A DNA stretch of 64,000 bases from Clostridia bacterium (GTDB lineage: Bacteria; Bacillota; Clostridia; Monoglobales; Monoglobaceae): positions 62,001-126,000 of the forward strand of contig JAFQSM010000036.1 of assembly GCA_017409575.1 (NCBI GenBank). Reading direction: 5' to 3'. The position numbers and the translations under genes are program-made. Below, piece by piece: positions 43,970-52,917 of the stretch. Below the pieces are notes generated by a model that was given only the letters and a program-made list of their open reading frames with translations, was not told where the DNA came from and made no database searches. Position 1 is the stretch's first letter. Every line of letters begins with the position of its first letter.

Positions 43970-45481
43970 TTATGCTTTATGGCCGCCTATCTGTTTATTA
44001 CGGTCAATAGTTGTTGCGCCCTCTTGAAGATTTATACCTTTCAGGATTGCATTTTTACCGAATCTGTTTCGGAGCTCAATAGTAGCCTGTTGTATTTTGC
44101 GTTCCTTTTCAAGCTCTCGTTGTTCCTTTTCACGCTTCTTTGTGAGCTCGTCATAATCGGTAAATAAATCAAGCTGCTCATATCCCTTATCTTCTTTAAT
44201 GTCGCTTTCGCTAATGATATGATTTGCTGCTATTGTAATTCTTCTGACTAACAAATTCTTATCTACAATCCTGTCAAAAAGCTCAACAACAGATTTCATT
44301 ATAAGCATTGTTGAAGCTGTGTGCCGTCCTATATTAGCCGTTCCGTGTGCATGCTTCGGAACTTTTCTTCCGTAATGGTCGGTAGTAACCTCACCTTTAT
44401 AATATTTACTTATTTCGGGATCGGTTAAATTTTCAATATCATATCCAATAGTCAAAACAATTTGGTCGGTAGCAATTTTCTTTTCAACTAAATCAAGAGC
44501 AAGAAGCTCTATCATTTCACGGACTATCAATTTTGCCTTTTCAAAACCATAAGGGCAATGCAAAACCTGCCCGGTGCTTATACTTTTGTTTTCGGGCTTG
44601 TAGGCTTTTGCGTCTGCAATCGTGCAAGGCTCCCAGCCCCAAGCGTGGTCTATGAGCAATTCCGCATTTATTCCGAACAGCTTATAAAGCTGATTTTCGC
44701 CGTAGGTTGTTGTGGAAGCTCTTGCAATATCACCCATAGTATAAAAACGATTTGCTTCAAGTTTTCTTGAATAGCCTGCGCCAACTCTCCAAAAATCAGT
44801 TAAAGGTCTATGCGTCCATAGCTCTCTGCGATAACTCATTTCGTCAAGCTCCGCAATTCTAACACCGTCTTTATCAGCCGGCATTTTTTTAGCCTTTATA
44901 TCCATTGCTATTTTTGCAAGATACATATTTGTACCAATTCCAGCCGTAGCAGTAATTCCCGTTGTAGCAAGAACATCACGAATTATCTTCATAGCCAATT
45001 CGTGCGCTGTCATTTTATAGGTGTTCAGATAGCTTGTAATATCCATAAATACCTCGTCAATAGAATACACAAGTATATCATCAGCAGAAATATATTTAAG
45101 GTACACATCATAAATTCGTGTGCTGTATTCCATATAATGCGCCATGCGTGGAGGCGCAACTATATACGAAAGCTCTAACTCCGGATTTTCAGAAAGCTCA
45201 ATAGCGTTTTCTGATTTGTCAGTAAAAGTCCTGTTCGGCGCCTTGCGTCTGCGTTCATTATTTACCTCTTTTACTCTCTGCACTACCTCAAACAATCTTG
45301 CACGCCCGGAAATACCGTATGCTTTTAAGCTGGGTGTAACTGCAAGGCAGATTGTTTTCTCTGTTCGGGAGCCGTCAGCGACAACAAGATTTGTTGTCAT
45401 AGGATCGAGATTTCTTTCAATGCACTCAACAGAGGCATAAAAGCTCTTTAAGTCAATACAAAGATATGTTCTGTTATCCAT
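43970..45481 (-). CDS. Y-family translesion DNA polymerase (UvrX/UmuC type)
   Basis: This 503-aa error-prone polymerase copies damaged DNA. Catalytic motifs are CIDLKSFYASVE (8-19), with the first metal Asp, and YSIDEVFMD (about 137-145), with the Asp-Glu pair. GIGTNMYLAKIAMD is the helix-hairpin region. YEQLDLF near residue 430 is a beta-clamp binding motif. It belongs to the plasmid/phage group of B. subtilis UvrX. AAAGGAG lies before the ATG. It has its own consensus promoter. Confidence 0.92.
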   Translation of the reverse strand: MDNRTYLCIDLKSFYASVECIERNLDPMTTNLVVADGSRTEKTICLAVTPSLKAYGISGRARLFEVVQRVKEVNNERRRKAPNRTFTDKSENAIELSENPELELSYIVAPPRMAHYMEYSTRIYDVYLKYISADDILVYSIDEVFMDITSYLNTYKMTAHELAMKIIRDVLATTGITATAGIGTNMYLAKIAMDIKAKKMPADKDGVRIAELDEMSYRRELWTHRPLTDFWRVGAGYSRKLEANRFYTMGDIARASTTTYGENQLYKLFGINAELLIDHAWGWEPCTIADAKAYKPENKSISTGQVLHCPYGFEKAKLIVREMIELLALDLVEKKIATDQIVLTIGYDIENLTDPEISKYYKGEVTTDHYGRKVPKHAHGTANIGRHTASTMLIMKSVVELFDRIVDKNLLVRRITIAANHIISESDIKEDKGYEQLDLFTDYDELTKKREKEQRELEKERKIQQATIELRNRFGKNAILKGINLQEGATTIDRNKQIGGHKA

Positions 45482-45596: not shown

Positions 45597-45651
45597 TTGA
45601 CAATACGACAGTTGTCGTATATAATATAACTAACATACGACAGTTGTCGTA
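45597..45651 (+). promoter_or_regulatory. promoter and twin operators of blaI-like cassette A
   Basis: TTGACA (45597-45602), 17 nt, TATAAT (45620-45625). The palindrome TACGACAGTTGTCGTA exactly fills the spacer (45604-45619) and recurs at 45636-45651 in the early transcribed region. BlaI/MecI repressors bind such paired dyads (classic half-site TACA/TGTA). These sites use TACGACA. Confidence 0.88.
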
Positions 45652-45670: not shown

Positions 45671-46057
45671 TTGAAAAAAACCGATAAGAGACTTCCGGAC
45701 GCGGAACTCGAAATTATGAAGGTGATTTGGCATAATCAAACACCTATATCTACAAGTGAGGTGAAGCAAATTATTGATGATGAAGGCGTAAACGATTGGA
45801 CGCAGCAAACTATTCAGACGCTACTTAACCGTCTTATCGTAAAGGAATTTATTTCAAAGGAAAATCGTGGCAAAGGATATATTTATACACCGCTTATATC
45901 AGAGAACGACTATATCAGTTATGAAAGTAAGATGTTTTTGGAAAAGCTACACGGTAATTCAGTAACAAGTTTAATGCGAGCTTTATTTGACAGAAATAAA
46001 ATGAGTGATGAAGATATTTCAAAACTTGAAGAAATGTTTAAGGAAAAGCAACAATGA
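45671..46057 (+). CDS. BlaI/MecI-family repressor, cassette A
   Basis: This 128-aa winged-helix repressor (LPDAELEIMKVIWHNQTPIS, WTQQTIQTLLNRLIVKEFIS) has a C-terminal dimer and cleavage region (FLEKLHGNSVTSLMRALF). The TTG at 45671 has GAGGT upstream. It overlaps the M56 protease gene by 4 bp (ATGA). In known systems the protease relieves this repressor by cleavage when the sensor is triggered. No beta-lactamase or PBP2a gene is next to it, so the signal is probably not a beta-lactam. Confidence 0.93.
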   Translation: MKKTDKRLPDAELEIMKVIWHNQTPISTSEVKQIIDDEGVNDWTQQTIQTLLNRLIVKEFISKENRGKGYIYTPLISENDYISYESKMFLEKLHGNSVTSLMRALFDRNKMSDEDISKLEEMFKEKQQ

Positions 46058-47952: not shown

Positions 47953-48117
47953 ATGGAACAACAAACGTTAAATTCTTGGTCTGTATGGATTGACGAAAAC
48001 AAGAAAGTAATTTCAATCAAAGAAAATCCAGCCGGAAAAGAAATCTTTTTTGACAACAGAGATATAGGCATTAAAGCAATAACGGAGCTTGTTTCCAAAG
48101 GTTATAAAATTGGATAA
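47953..48117 (+). CDS. 54-aa protein ending cassette A
   Basis: This short gene starts 6 bp after the M56 gene. The product contains WSVWIDENKKVISIKENPAG, KEIFFDNRDIGIKA and TELVSKGYKIG. A second copy (52750-52917) differs at a few positions. Strong conservation and identical placement at the end of both BlaI/M56 cassettes argue that it is real. It is soluble, with no signal peptide or cysteine. Function unknown. A terminator follows. Confidence 0.75.
   Translation: MEQQTLNSWSVWIDENKKVISIKENPAGKEIFFDNRDIGIKAITELVSKGYKIG
47975..48117 (+). repeat. 143-bp direct repeat, copy 1
   Basis: This copy matches 52775-52917 with six mismatches counted by eye (about 96% identical), with no gap; the copies are exactly 4800 bp apart. 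It covers most of the 54-aa gene. Confidence 0.9.
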
Positions 48118-48122
48118 CAGTA

Positions 48123-48153
48123 AAACCCTTGCCGAACTGGCAAGGGTTTTTTT
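48123..48153 (+). terminator. terminator of cassette A
   Basis: Stem AAACCCTTGCC / GGCAAGGGTTT (11 bp), 5-nt loop, then a T-run. Confidence 0.92.
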
Positions 48154-48183
48154 ATGTTATTTAGATAAATTTTCTGAAACATC

Positions 48184-48242
48184 TTGACAAGTGTAGCTAC
48201 ATCTGTTATACTAATGACAGTAGCTACAAGTGTAATTACACT
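48184..48242 (+). promoter_or_regulatory. promoter and operators of cassette B
   Basis: TTGACA (48184-48189), 17 nt, TATACT (48207-48212). AGTGTAGCTACATCT lies in the spacer (48190-48204). Downstream are ACAGTAGCTACAAGT and the perfect dyad AGTGTAATTACACT (48229-48242). Half-sites GTGTA/TACAC match the classic BlaI/MecI type and differ from those of cassette A, so the two repressors probably do not share sites. Confidence 0.85.
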
Positions 48243-48278
48243 AAAATCAATCTTATGTAACATAAGGAGGACAATAAA

Positions 48279-48650
48279 ATGTCAACTGTTAAACACACAA
48301 TTACCGATTCCGAATACGCAATTATGCGAATACTCTGGAAAGCTGAAAAACAAATGACTGTTGCAGATGTAGTAAGAGAGCTTGACGGAAACGACTGGAC
48401 GGCTTCTACCGTATCTACCTTTTTGCAAAGGCTACTTAAAAAAGAGGTTATTGCCTGCGATAAAAAGGGCAAGACCAATTTGTATTACCCTTTGCTGAAA
48501 CAAAGCGAATACGATTTGAGCGAAACAGAAAATTTCCTGTCAAAGATTTATAAAGGCTCTGTTAAAAATCTTGTTGCGGCACTCTATGAAAACAAAAAAC
48601 TTTCAAATGAGGATATGTCGGATTTGAAAAAAATGTTTGAATTGGAGTGA
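48279..48650 (+). CDS. BlaI/MecI-family repressor, cassette B
   Basis: This 123-aa winged-helix repressor (ITDSEYAIMRILWKAEKQMT, WTASTVSTFLQRLLKKEVIA) has the usual C-terminal region (FLSKIYKGSVKNLVAALYEN). AAGGAGG lies before the ATG. It is followed 4 bp later by a stand-alone M56 protease. It is clearly diverged from the cassette A repressor, so the cassettes are not a fresh copy of one another across their full length. Confidence 0.94.
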   Translation: MSTVKHTITDSEYAIMRILWKAEKQMTVADVVRELDGNDWTASTVSTFLQRLLKKEVIACDKKGKTNLYYPLLKQSEYDLSETENFLSKIYKGSVKNLVAALYENKKLSNEDMSDLKKMFELE

Positions 48651-48654
48651 TACT

Positions 48655-49482
48655 ATGTTTGAGCTTTTCAAAACAGTGCTTATATTAAGCCTTTTTGGTT
48701 TTGGGATAACAGCTTTACTGCTTTGCTTAAAACCCATTACCGCAAAAAAATTTCCTGCTAAATGGCAATATTACGTATGGATTGCGGTATTGCTCTCAAT
48801 GATTATACCTACATACAAGCTGATACCCCCAAAAGAAGCTCAAAAGCTCCCGCTGCTCCCTCAAAATGAAATTGTGCAGCCGGAAGCTGTGCAAGATTTA
48901 GAGGAAGCTCCGAGAACGGTTATAATCGAGGAAACACCCATTGAGTACAGAGAGGTAAACATCACACCGAACTATCGTATTAAGCTGCTTGATTTATTGG
49001 CTTATGTGTGGTTTGTCGGTATGTGTATTTATCTGATTGTCGTTATCAGCAGCTATATTATTTATCTCATAAGGAAACATAAAAAAGCTATACGAATAAC
49101 GGAAAATGCTGTGCTGAATGAGGTTAAAAAGGAATTGAAGATAAAACGGCATATCAAAATCAGAATGTCGAGGGATTTTGAATCGCCCATGCTTGTAGGC
49201 GTTCTGTTCCCGGTTATCTATATTCCCTGCAGAGAAATCCCGGACGAAAATATGCGAATGGTATTCCTGCACGAACTGACTCATTACAAGAGAAAAGATT
49301 TGATTATAAAATGGTTATCACTCTTTGTAAACGCTGTGCATTGGTTTAACCCTCTTGCATATCTGCTCTGTGCGAACGTCAGCGAGGCCTGCGAGGTTTC
49401 CTGTGATATGGCAGTTACAAAAAATATGTCCGATACAGAACAAAAAATCTATATGAAAACAATTCTTGATTTAGTTGAATAG
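48655..49482 (+). CDS. stand-alone M56 protease of split BlaR1 system
   Basis: This 275-aa protein has helices at about 5-25, 38-53 and 112-139, the zinc motif LHELTHYKRKD (205-215) and a last helix about 217-240. The sequence ends 20 residues after EACEVSCDMAV. It stops exactly where one-piece BlaR1 proteins continue into the final transmembrane helix and outer sensor. The next gene begins 14 bp later with the missing part and its own AGGAGG. The ATG at 48655 is chosen for GGAGTG. I see it as a natural split, not a frameshift. Confidence 0.85.
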   Translation: MFELFKTVLILSLFGFGITALLLCLKPITAKKFPAKWQYYVWIAVLLSMIIPTYKLIPPKEAQKLPLLPQNEIVQPEAVQDLEEAPRTVIIEETPIEYREVNITPNYRIKLLDLLAYVWFVGMCIYLIVVISSYIIYLIRKHKKAIRITENAVLNEVKKELKIKRHIKIRMSRDFESPMLVGVLFPVIYIPCREIPDENMRMVFLHELTHYKRKDLIIKWLSLFVNAVHWFNPLAYLLCANVSEACEVSCDMAVTKNMSDTEQKIYMKTILDLVE

Positions 49483-49496
49483 GAGGCGAAATTTAT

Positions 49497-50573
49497 ATGT
49501 TAGAAAGATTATATACAACAAAAATGAGCGCAAATAAAAAACAGATACAGAATAGATTTACAAAAATTCGTTCTGCAAACAGTAAAATTTCAAAAATGAT
49601 GTCCCTTGTAATGGCAATATTTGTTGCAGTAACAATGCTCTGTGCTAATGTTGTTATGGCTATGGTTGATGAAAAAACAAGCGAACAATATGTAATTGAG
49701 GTAAAAAAAGCAGAAACAATTTTAGATTACTACAATAAGCCATTTGTTGAAAACGATACGGTATATTTCCCATTAAGAGAAACCTTTGAAAAATTCGGGA
49801 TAATGGAAAACAAAGACAGTTATATAAATTGGGACAATGGTAAAATTGATATTTGTATTGCTTGGTCTGATAATAGCGATTATGCAAAAGAAGCTCATAG
49901 CCAATTAAATAATGGTAATGGAGTTAATGTAATTACATTGTTGCATCATTACAGAATTGAAATCGGAAAAAATGTTATGACGTATAATGCAACAAAGAAT
50001 TTAGCCGGGCAGGATATATCATCACCCAAATCAATGAATAGTGCCCCTTTGTTAAGGAATGGTATAACTTATGTACCCTTTGAATATCTAAAAGGATTCA
50101 ATGTTTCTCATTCATTTATGGAACTTAATTTTACTATAAAAGATGTAAATGGCAATGATTTATATTCCATTCCGTATGTACCTATGAAGTCTGTTACATT
50201 TGAAACGAATGAAAATTCAGAATTTGACGCAAGTGATGCAACAGCAGTATTACATACTTTTTTGAAAGCACTATATAGAGCAGACTATAATACAATGACA
50301 ACTTTATGTACGAGAAACTGCGTAAATGAGCATTTTAAGTTTCTTGATACACCGGAGGTTGCAAGTGTTTACGGCATTCATAAAGCAAGTACAAAAAGTA
50401 TAGGATACGGCTTTACAAACAAAAAAAACGATTATTCAAAAGACCCTATCATAGTAACACTGAATTGTGAGTTGACTGCTTATTCATCAGCAATCGGCGG
50501 TGAACAAGAAATAAAAGTTTATTTTGAAAAGCAACCAGACGGAACATTTTTAATAAGTGATTTTACAAACTAA
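49497..50573 (+). CDS. membrane-anchored sensor 1 of split BlaR1 system
   Basis: This 358-aa protein has a basic inside N-terminus LERLYTTKMSANKKQIQNRF, the same segment that follows the protease domain in one-piece BlaR1-like proteins. A helix (about 34-55) crosses the membrane. The outer part has two half-modules like copper-amine-oxidase-N stalk domains (NDTVYFPLRETFEKFGI and RNGITYVPFEYLKGF) and then an NTF2-like domain (about 240-358, LHTFLKALYRADYNTMTTLC). No protease motif is present. AGGAGG lies before the start. It is presumed to signal to the adjacent protease. Confidence 0.8.
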   Translation: MLERLYTTKMSANKKQIQNRFTKIRSANSKISKMMSLVMAIFVAVTMLCANVVMAMVDEKTSEQYVIEVKKAETILDYYNKPFVENDTVYFPLRETFEKFGIMENKDSYINWDNGKIDICIAWSDNSDYAKEAHSQLNNGNGVNVITLLHHYRIEIGKNVMTYNATKNLAGQDISSPKSMNSAPLLRNGITYVPFEYLKGFNVSHSFMELNFTIKDVNGNDLYSIPYVPMKSVTFETNENSEFDASDATAVLHTFLKALYRADYNTMTTLCTRNCVNEHFKFLDTPEVASVYGIHKASTKSIGYGFTNKKNDYSKDPIIVTLNCELTAYSSAIGGEQEIKVYFEKQPDGTFLISDFTN

Positions 50574-50612
50574 ACTTTGACAAAGAATTATTGACAAGGA
50601 GGCGAATTTGAT

Positions 50613-51650
50613 ATGTTTGAAAGATTATATACAACAAAAATGAGTGCTGATAAAAAATCCTTACAAAAACGCTTTTCTAAAATCCGTTCAAAAAACGGGA
50701 GAATATCAAGACTAATGGCAATTTTCATGTCCGTTGCTGTTCTCATAACAATAACCTGTGCAACTATTGTTATGGCAGCCGTAGGATCGGACGGATTGGA
50801 GTATTGGGATAAAAACGAAGTCTATATTTTAGGTAGTATGAAATTGTCAGTTGATGTAGAGCTTGAAAAAGCTCCGCAATGGATAAAAGATATTTCTTCC
50901 AATGGAAAGCTAACTCTTATGATAAATAAAATAGATACCCGTGCCACATCAGGACTTGTAACACACAGTAATTCAGCAAAAATAAGTGGAGATATTGGAA
51001 GCGAAACTCTTACTCGTTCAGGAACATCAAGCTATTATAATACAGAGCTTGTAAAATCTGATAAAGAATATGACTGGGCTGTTATGCTTTTTAGTTATGG
51101 CACCACTGATAAGGGCGATATTGATACTGATAATATTTATGCTTATTTTACAACTAATTATGATGAGTTATCAAGATATATCGGCGTGGACTATGATTTT
51201 TTCAAAAAAGAGATTGGTTTTGAAAAGTTTTCAAAAGGCTATGATATTCAATATATAGGTGATTACGAAGAAGCTGAAAAGATGTATAATAACGGAATTT
51301 ATGTAAATTATTTCACCTACTTTGAAAACAAGTACAATAACCGTGAGGTTGAAAATATTGATATAAACATTATTAGAGCTGATAATGGTTTTATAACTGT
51401 TAAACCTAACATTGACATTGTAAAGGCGTCAAAACTTCAGGTCTATATATGTGAGCCAAATCAAATATATCGTAGCGGAACGATTAAGCCTTACAAATTA
51501 TCAGAGGTAAACGGAACAGAAATAAAAATCCCCAATATGCATCTATCAGAAAAATATGAAAGTGGAAAGACTTATGCTGTGCTTTCTGTTGTAACAGATG
51601 ATTATGACAATGTTCTTTATCGTCAGCAAGACTATGTGAATATACCGTAA
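50613..51650 (+). CDS. membrane-anchored sensor 2 of split BlaR1 system
   Basis: This 345-aa paralog of the preceding protein shares about 33 of its first 57 residues, including MFERLYTTKMSADKK and the membrane helix (about 34-55). The outer domain (about 58-345) is unrelated and unrecognized; its last 80 residues look like an Ig-type beta fold (TYAVLSVVTDDYDNVLYRQQ). The DNA around both starts is also nearly the same (GGAGGCGAA...ATG), pointing to duplication followed by exchange of the outer part. Confidence 0.8.
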   Translation: MFERLYTTKMSADKKSLQKRFSKIRSKNGRISRLMAIFMSVAVLITITCATIVMAAVGSDGLEYWDKNEVYILGSMKLSVDVELEKAPQWIKDISSNGKLTLMINKIDTRATSGLVTHSNSAKISGDIGSETLTRSGTSSYYNTELVKSDKEYDWAVMLFSYGTTDKGDIDTDNIYAYFTTNYDELSRYIGVDYDFFKKEIGFEKFSKGYDIQYIGDYEEAEKMYNNGIYVNYFTYFENKYNNREVENIDINIIRADNGFITVKPNIDIVKASKLQVYICEPNQIYRSGTIKPYKLSEVNGTEIKIPNMHLSEKYESGKTYAVLSVVTDDYDNVLYRQQDYVNIP

Positions 51651-51664
51651 AGGAGGCTTTTGAT

Positions 51665-52738
51665 ATGAAAAAAATAATCAGTTTAATTTTAACACTCACA
51701 CTCCTTTGTTCTATTGGCATAACTGCACTCGCAACCAATAATGAAACTGTTGGAGGAAAAATTACACTAACACAATTCATAGGAACAGAAAGAAATAACG
51801 CAACATCAGTACAGTTATATATCAAAGGACAATTATATACGGTTGATACAAAAGCGTTTTATGACATTGCCGATTCTATGATAATCACATCTAATATTGA
51901 GCCATATACAATTACTAATGACGGCATATATATTTGTGTAAAGGCTGATGAAGATACGGCTGATTTTGTATATTTGAGTGATGCCGGAATAGACAGAGCG
52001 ACTCCAGCTCCGGGCAGACCTCTTTACTCCTTGTATGTTCCCGATGATACAACGCTAATTAACAAACTTTACAAGCTCACAGAAAACACTACAGATACAG
52101 TTTTTAGTGATACAAGCGGACACTGGGCTGAAAATACAATCAACAAATGGAAAGAAAATGGTATAATTTCAGGCTATCCCGACGGAACATTTCAGCCGGA
52201 TAACCCTGTAACACGTGCCGAACTTGCAAAAATAGTTACATTGGCATTTGATTTGCAGGAAAATGAGTTTGTATACAATGAAAATGACATTGATAATTCA
52301 GCGTGGTATTACCAATATTTGCAACGTGCTGCAAAATATATCCCTGTTTATGCGCTACCTGTTGGATATGAGAATAACATACCTTATGTTGATAACAACG
52401 ACGAAAATAGCTTTTTGCCCGAGTGCTATGCTATTCGTATGCACGTTGCGGAAACATTGGTTGAAATCAAAAAAGAGAAAGAAAAATTAAATATTGAAAT
52501 TCCGTCCATATTAGAGGTAAAAAGTTCAATAAACGACACTTTCAAAGATGGTGATTATGAAAACCTTTATGCAATGCACGGAACGATTCCTAAAAATGTT
52601 CAGCGAATGTTTGAATACACTTGGTTAGCAAAAGAGCTTGACATTATGCAGGGCGATACAAACGGATATTTTCGTCCGTATGACAATGTAACAAGGGCGG
52701 AATTGCTTACAATGATTGACAGAATTTTGGAGAAATAA
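51665..52738 (+). CDS. SLH-domain surface protein
   Basis: This 357-aa protein has a signal peptide (cut near ALA-TNN, residue 24), a beta-rich N-terminal domain (about 25-140) and three S-layer homology modules. The first is clear (FSDTSGHWAENTINKWKENG, ISGYPDGTFQPDNPVTRAEL), the second degenerate and the third FKDGDYENLY ... NGYFRPYDNVTRAE. SLH modules bind pyruvylated wall polymers. It lies 14 bp after sensor 2, inside the cassette B operon, so it may be the output or the sensed partner. Confidence 0.88.
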   Translation: MKKIISLILTLTLLCSIGITALATNNETVGGKITLTQFIGTERNNATSVQLYIKGQLYTVDTKAFYDIADSMIITSNIEPYTITNDGIYICVKADEDTADFVYLSDAGIDRATPAPGRPLYSLYVPDDTTLINKLYKLTENTTDTVFSDTSGHWAENTINKWKENGIISGYPDGTFQPDNPVTRAELAKIVTLAFDLQENEFVYNENDIDNSAWYYQYLQRAAKYIPVYALPVGYENNIPYVDNNDENSFLPECYAIRMHVAETLVEIKKEKEKLNIEIPSILEVKSSINDTFKDGDYENLYAMHGTIPKNVQRMFEYTWLAKELDIMQGDTNGYFRPYDNVTRAELLTMIDRILEK

Positions 52739-52749
52739 AATTTTAGATT

Positions 52750-52917
52750 ATGAACGAACAAAACATTAAACAGGCTTGGTCTGTATGGATTGACGAAAAC
52801 AAGAAAGTAGTTTCAATCAAAGAAAATCCAGCCGGAAAAGAAATCTTTTTTGAGAACAGGGATATAGGCATTAAAGCAGTAACGGAACTTGTTTCCAAAG
52901 GTTATAAAATTGGGTAA
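52750..52917 (+). CDS. 55-aa protein ending cassette B
   Basis: This is a near copy of the 47953-48117 protein: WSVWIDENKKVVSIKENPAG, KEIFFENRDIGIKA and TELVSKGYKIG, differing only in its first eight residues and in V for I and E for D changes. It sits 11 bp after the SLH gene and just before a terminator. Function unknown. Confidence 0.75.
   Translation: MNEQNIKQAWSVWIDENKKVVSIKENPAGKEIFFENRDIGIKAVTELVSKGYKIG
52775..52917 (+). repeat. 143-bp direct repeat, copy 2
   Basis: Partner of 47975-48117. Three of the six mismatches change the protein and the others are silent. Confidence 0.9.

Follow-up and report, generated by a model that had tools for sequence, protein, structure and literature searches.

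How can a membrane protease respond to the outside of the cell when its outward-facing part is encoded by other genes? The question is raised by an operon in a 64,000-nucleotide (nt) stretch of a Clostridia bacterium assembly (GCA_017409575.1, contig JAFQSM010000036.1, positions 62,001 to 126,000; hereafter the window, in whose positions its features are numbered). In BlaR1 and MecR1, an M56 zinc protease and its outer sensor belong to one polypeptide. The way in which this sensor controls the inner protease, and the purpose of autocleavage, are still debated. In the window operon, protease and outer domains have separate frames and separate start sites. The gene order is BlaI repressor, M56 protease, sensor 1, sensor 2, SLH-domain protein and a 55-residue open reading frame (ORF). 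Sensor 1 starts 14 nt after the stop codon of the M56 gene, in a different frame. The window genome (1.78 Mb, 101 contigs, about 90% complete) has four M56 genes, and the one at 48655-49482 is the only split one. We interpret the system as a BlaR1-type receptor divided into a protease and detachable sensors, an interpretation that is well supported by homology, phylogeny and recurrence.

This organization had first been noticed in the bare sequence, and that observation is confirmed. The open frames of the stand-alone M56 and of the two sensors lie exactly where this original prediction placed them, and its starting point, 48184, is the -35 of the operon promoter. The N-termini of the sensors share 33 of 57 residues, as had been claimed. 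The AGGAGG site ascribed to each sensor gene lies within a DNA repeat of the two gene starts (49475-49660 and 50591-50776, 186 nt, 73%). The outer domains (ectodomains) had been described as unrelated, and BLASTP indeed finds no similarity between them.

The split falls at a defined point of the BlaR1 architecture. The protease aligns with BlaR1 structures in the PDB (8exp/8exs) from the first transmembrane (TM) helix to residue 269-270. Its end is equivalent to BlaR1 residue 270, at the end of helix alpha8, where the autocleavage loop starts (residues 271-289 in S. aureus BlaR1; PMC9834060). Sensors start at this stopping point and supply what the protease lacks, namely the autocleavage-loop segment, the alpha9 arginine and the terminal TM helix (alpha10 in BlaR1; PMC9834060). 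The NCBIfam model blaR1_generic, built by others and hence an independent placement of both parts, puts the protease on positions 10-270 and sensor 1 on 282-381. With HExxH and the distal Glu present, the split protease scores 161.7 bits against PF05569, for a curated cut-off of 31.

In BlaR1, the autocleavage loop is cut between Ser283 and Phe284, fills the cleft and shuts BlaI out, and a domain swap brings Arg294' of the partner-chain helix alpha9 to Asp246 (PMC9834060). The 10-residue spacing between the P1' residue and the arginine is kept in BlaR1 (F284-R294), in the fused receptor of the neighbouring cassette A (F310-R320), in the sensors (M10-R20) and in fused relatives (LTTGMTGNKETLKRRF) that carry the LTTxM...RRF-helix segment in frame; the loop mapping is possibly one residue off, while the arginine is unambiguous. 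Because alpha9, alpha10 and the sensor are domain-swapped in BlaR1, a cut in the loop would, by analogy, not necessarily upset assembly.

Residue conservation was examined in 80 sensors, 41 split proteases and 44 BlaIs. In the sensors, T8, R20 and an aromatic Y/F6 are found in 80/80 and F21 in 79/80; position 10, which is P1'-like, is Met in 79 and Ile in one. H206-E207-H210, E247, D251, Y266 and I270 are invariant in the 41 proteases, Y266 and I270 matching BlaR1 Tyr261 and the S1' residue Ile265. On the repressor side, Leu102, the presumed P1' position, is present in 44/44 BlaIs. The bond Ala101-Leu102 is our candidate cleavage site, by analogy with Asn101/Phe102 of S. aureus BlaI (PMC9834060). 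These conserved residues fit a shared active site, not a mere membrane anchor. Ratios of nonsynonymous to synonymous substitution rates (dN/dS) are 0.04-0.20 for BlaI, M56 and sensors in the compared pairs with informative dS; by this measure, all parts of the cassette are under purifying selection.

The original prediction would have been refuted if no other genome kept the split, and the survey found the opposite. A profile search (E<1e-10) matched the sensor segment in 24 of 391 genomes of the class, from 9 families. Among 84,980 named species genomes, 37 loci were detected, all in metagenome-assembled genomes of uncultured Clostridia or other Firmicutes, mostly from animal gut by title. 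In total, 41 distinct split M56 sequences and 80 sensors were collected. A phylum-wide sample yielded no further match besides the own genome (0/397, E<=1e-8). The order BlaI, M56 (266-290 residues), sensors is constant. The 40 complete cassettes comprise 18 with one sensor, 15 with two and 7 with three. We found no published description of split M56 receptors in the full-text, open-licence library that was searched, which does not prove that there is none.

In the tree, the 41 split M56s form one clade (support 99/98), the sister of which (99/97) consists of fused M56s carrying the same segment. A single fission is therefore the simplest history, and independent splits in several lineages were rejected on the basis of this one clade. 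One stray "split" row, L050 (L and G numbers are our labels for loci and genomes), is a fused protein with a short tail, an artefact of the length rule. The nearest sequences to the window M56 come from another family (f15) rather than from its own genus (G001, G004), a placement that suggests horizontal transfer. Known plasmids were rejected as carriers, as the M56s found there are just 26-29% identical. Two M56 genes, one of split type and one of another type, seem broken by frameshifts, through error or decay (L128 5153-5976 and G060:C66 39389-40299, L044).

The junction was also modelled. In L102, where a single in-frame stop separates the protease from the first sensor, this stop was read as Gly and the resulting chain was predicted with AlphaFold2 (mean predicted local distance difference test score, pLDDT, 82). 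Residues 4-297 of the model align with residues 1-292 of BlaR1 (8exs, Z 20.2, root-mean-square deviation 6.1; 8ext, Z 20.0, 4.2). The alignment crosses the junction, covers the first 16 residues of the sensor and ends at the swapped helix of BlaR1; a match to Ste24/ZMPSTE24 extends to model residue 307. The model shows compatibility, not binding, because a fusion forces proximity. The NCBIfam positions, the fused relatives and this read-through model agree on a BlaR1 cut into protease and separate sensors, as originally proposed.

Sensors behave as exchangeable modules. Locus L100, from an uncultured Ruminococcus, carries the same cassette: its left block corresponds to window positions 48140-49573 (96.5% identical) and its right block to 50596-52913 (99.5%). 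Sensor 1 of the window is absent from it and two other sensors (503 and 256 residues) are found there. The left block breaks off 77 nt into the sensor gene, within the shared segment. More generally, the first 55 residues are more alike within cassettes (identity 0.589, for ectodomains without detectable similarity) than between cassettes (0.435), the pairs being not independent and gene conversion being likely. The term "interchangeable", used in the original prediction, gains support from the swap and from this N-terminal sharing.

Three large ectodomain classes were distinguished. In class 0 (n=30), Cu_amine_oxidN1 is found in 25 members and M23 in 12. The HxGxD and HLH motifs of the M23 sensors L101 (6785-7822), L102 (6001-7041) and L042 (6885-7937) look intact, and the M23 outer domain may therefore be active in wall hydrolysis. 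Class 1 ("GLEHWDKNE"), to which sensor 2 belongs, has 24 members and no Pfam domain. In the AlphaFold2 model of sensor 2 (mean pLDDT 70.8), Foldseek matches the C-terminal domain to FN3 folds; the fold search gave FN3-like matches of this domain only, none at E below 0.001. A secreted family with the pattern (V/I)GG(K/Q)ITLTQ(F/L)(I/L)G, represented in the window by the SLH protein that starts 14 nt past sensor 2, recurs right behind class-1 sensors in L104, L105, L116, L126 and L127 and may be a partner or output of these sensors. The third class has an NTF2-like C-terminal domain in an L102 model and occasional matches to DUF4829, DUF4825 or, in one split sensor, LytR_cpsA_psr. A LytR-CpsA-Psr-like outer domain is also visible by sequence (LLFVGLDNN.RADTIML..SIPRNTL) in the fused M56 receptors L088 (1561-4494, G000:C17), L090 and L092.

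Operators connect the repressor to its own operon. TGTAnnTACA dyads occur 41 times upstream of the 44 blaI genes, against 0.32 expected by shuffling. The core operator half GTAGCTACA is found in the window genome only at the promoter of the split-M56 operon. The operon is therefore predicted to be autoregulated, and the same search of this genome, which is about 90% complete, for an output regulon returned that one site and no remote target. Two orphans carry comparable signals: L110 (G060/G424 contig 65) is an operator-bearing BlaI-sensor pair lacking an M56, and L118 (G423 contig 17) is a lone sensor whose promoter has GTAGCTACA operators. Both genomes have split M56 cassettes elsewhere, as would be expected if a sensor can work with a protease encoded at a distance.

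We consider it probable that the sensors complete and gate the shared protease in trans, and that this protease then cleaves BlaI. In this reading, a single break where the autocleavage loop starts would have divided a BlaR1-type polypeptide into a membrane M56 and detachable sensors with N-in/C-out topology. The sensor N-terminus would restore the loop strand (Tyr6-Thr7-Thr8-Lys9|Met10) and lie in the active site as a pseudo-substrate or plug. The Arg20 helix would face Asp251 and complete the active site; the TM helix of the sensor would be the fourth, leading to the outer domain. A single protease would be shared, or competed for, by sensors with different outer domains. An external change would pull the plug away, so that BlaI could be cleaved at about Ala101-Leu102 and the operon derepressed; in the window, the products would include the SLH and 55-residue proteins.

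Several points weigh against this reading. The case is computational throughout, with every locus coming from metagenome-assembled genomes. The modelled complex is a forced fusion rather than separate chains. Duplication and gene conversion can make the N-termini within a cassette alike even where no functional pairing exists, and the orphan sensors may be relics. Finally, "sensor" names a role by analogy, because many cassettes have no output gene besides the sensors.

The alternative that survives best, though we regard it as unlikely, is that the anchored proteins are primarily effectors, either cell-wall enzymes or surface proteins (M23 endopeptidases, LytR-CpsA-Psr proteins, stalk domains). 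Their N-terminal tails would signal to the protease how much of the protein is present or in what state it is, and the operon would be a homeostatic feedback device, not a ligand receiver. This alternative stays alive because, in about half of all cassettes, the operon contains no gene beyond BlaI, M56 and sensors. The M23 domains (HxGxD and HxH motifs can be seen in L101 and L042), the single LytR_cpsA_psr sensor and the restriction of GTAGCTACA to one promoter also agree with it. Enzyme-like ectodomains do not discriminate, however, since the sensor of BlaR1 is itself enzyme-like, and no enzymatic domain is seen in two of the three large classes. Moreover, feedback would use the same coupling mechanism as trans gating and differ just in what is sensed. 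We infer that the ectodomains are ligand sensors and not cell-wall enzymes or structural proteins whose levels are set by feedback.

It is very improbable that no interaction is left, with the split M56 acting alone and the shared N-terminus being an inherited signal-anchor. A precedent would be PetP (with PetR, Synechocystis), a BlaR1-like protease reported to stand alone, with no outer sensor (PMC7896320). But a plain anchor needs none of T8, M10, R20 and F21, which 79-80 of 80 sensors retain even as the TM sequence drifts; the sensors stand right behind the M56 in all complete cassettes, and the protease has no catalytic-helix Arg unless a sensor gives one. Sequencing or assembly error, a pseudogene, or a stop read through into a fused receptor is refuted for the class as a whole: although protease and sensor share a frame at 10 of 42 junctions, the frames spread 19/13/10 (+1/+2/0) as in independent genes, with no sign of read-through or frameshifting from M56 into sensor, each sensor gene has its own Shine-Dalgarno sequence and start codon, dN/dS is low, the split is seen in 41 independent sequences, and two or three sensors per protease cannot make one fusion.

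Signalling of the sensors through the shared protease thus remains the probable reading. A stronger version is possible, and we advance it only tentatively. The receptor would be obligately heteromeric and combinatorial, its protease being catalytically incomplete until an exchangeable sensor gives the Arg helix and plug in trans. One to three operon sensors and unlinked orphans would compete, giving AND/OR logic, and sensors would be exchanged between genomes like cartridges.

Features of the split-M56 operon and of the adjacent cassette A (window positions).
Feature	Position	Strand	Evidence or remark
Cassette A BlaI	45671-46057		
Cassette A fused M56 + Cu_amine_oxidN1 receptor, 630 residues	46054-47946	+	outside the split system
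Intrinsic terminator, between cassette A and split-M56 operon	48122-48150	+	sequence
Operon promoter, sigma-70-type, TTGACA-17-TATACT	48184-48212	+	strongest match of the region, 11/12
BlaI-type operators TGTAGCTACA (48192-48201), GTAGCTACA (48220-48228), TGTAATTACA (48231-48240)	48192-48240		inside and just past the promoter
BlaI/MecI-family repressor, 123 residues	48279-48650	+	PF03965, 1e-31
Stand-alone M56 zinc protease, 275 residues	48655-49482	+	PF05569, 3e-47, profile 3-266 of 296
Anchored sensor 1, 358 residues, shared segment + Cu_amine_oxidN1 ectodomain	49497-50573	+	PF07833, 3.5e-8, residues 77-199
Sensor 1 shared coupling segment: autocleavage-loop equivalent, Arg20-Phe21 helix, last TM helix	49497-49661	+	
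Anchored sensor 2, 345 residues, shared segment + "GLEHWDKNE" class ectodomain	50613-51650	+	no Pfam match
Sensor 2 shared coupling segment	50613-50777	+	N-terminal and DNA repeat comparison
SLH-domain protein, secreted; final large gene of the operon	51665-52738	+	PF00395, 2e-27
55-residue small protein, 3' end of the operon	52750-52917	+	repeat shared with cassette A

Cassette A encodes a BlaI of its own together with a conventional fused M56 receptor whose outer domain is Cu_amine_oxidN1. Its promoter (45604-45651) contains two copies of a different dyad, TACGACAGTTGTCGTA, which suggests that its BlaI differs in specificity from the TGTAGCTACA-type BlaI. Because of this difference, the two circuits look insulated from each other. 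A Y-family DNA polymerase-like gene (UmuC/DinB type, by sequence) adjoins the cassette at 43970-45481 (-). Cassette A is closed by a 54-residue ORF (47953-48117) related to the 55-residue ORF of the operon; the two form a 162-nt direct repeat, 91% identical, that ends both window cassettes. The protein pattern is W(S/T)VWIDE..K.IS...G.K...F....IG.K.V..L...GYKIG. An NCBIfam scan of both window copies gave no match. M56 cassettes in G060, G004, L103, L108, L114, L116 and L145 also have a relative at their 3' end, and the protein is possibly an accessory of M56-BlaI circuits.

The covalent bond is lost at the autocleavage loop and the rest is kept, which makes the system a natural test of BlaR1 gating in which the two components, protease and sensor, can be combined, titrated and mutated independently. 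If our reading is correct, it would define a family of bacterial receptors whose sensor subunits are exchangeable and which act via repressor proteolysis instead of phosphotransfer, and it would tie outer domains related to the wall to gene regulation in gut Clostridia.

With the BlaR1/MecR1-BlaI/MecI systems of S. aureus and B. licheniformis, the split system shares a BlaI partner gene with dyad operators, an M56 gluzincin membrane protease, an autocleavage-loop segment with a hydrophobic P1', the Arg helix, the last TM helix and an outer domain. With its PF03965 domain and the dyad operator at its own promoter, the repressor belongs to the BlaI/MecI family. In BlaR1 a single chain carries a penicillin-binding outer domain, whereas the split system consists of two or more chains broken at the autocleavage loop, and no penicillin-binding (transpeptidase/OXA-like) Pfam family was found in the 74 sensors scanned. 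Lacking these two defining features, it is not BlaR1 sensu stricto but a derived branch of BlaR1-like M56 receptors, which very likely works like BlaR1. The fused Clostridia M56 receptors (cassette A, G000:C17, L090-L092, L156), with Cu_amine_oxidN1 or LytR-CpsA-Psr-like outer domains, include the sister of the split clade; they share with it the LTT(G/Q)M...(K/R)RF segment and an overlapping outer-domain repertoire, but are single polypeptides with one sensor per protease. In the copper-responsive PetP-PetR system of Synechocystis, a BlaR1-family protease likewise controls a BlaI-family regulator in response to a signal other than a beta-lactam, and no separate sensor subunits are described in that report (PMC7896320). 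A PetP-like protease would have no partner giving the last helix and outer domain; in the split system, every complete cassette has sensors right after the protease.

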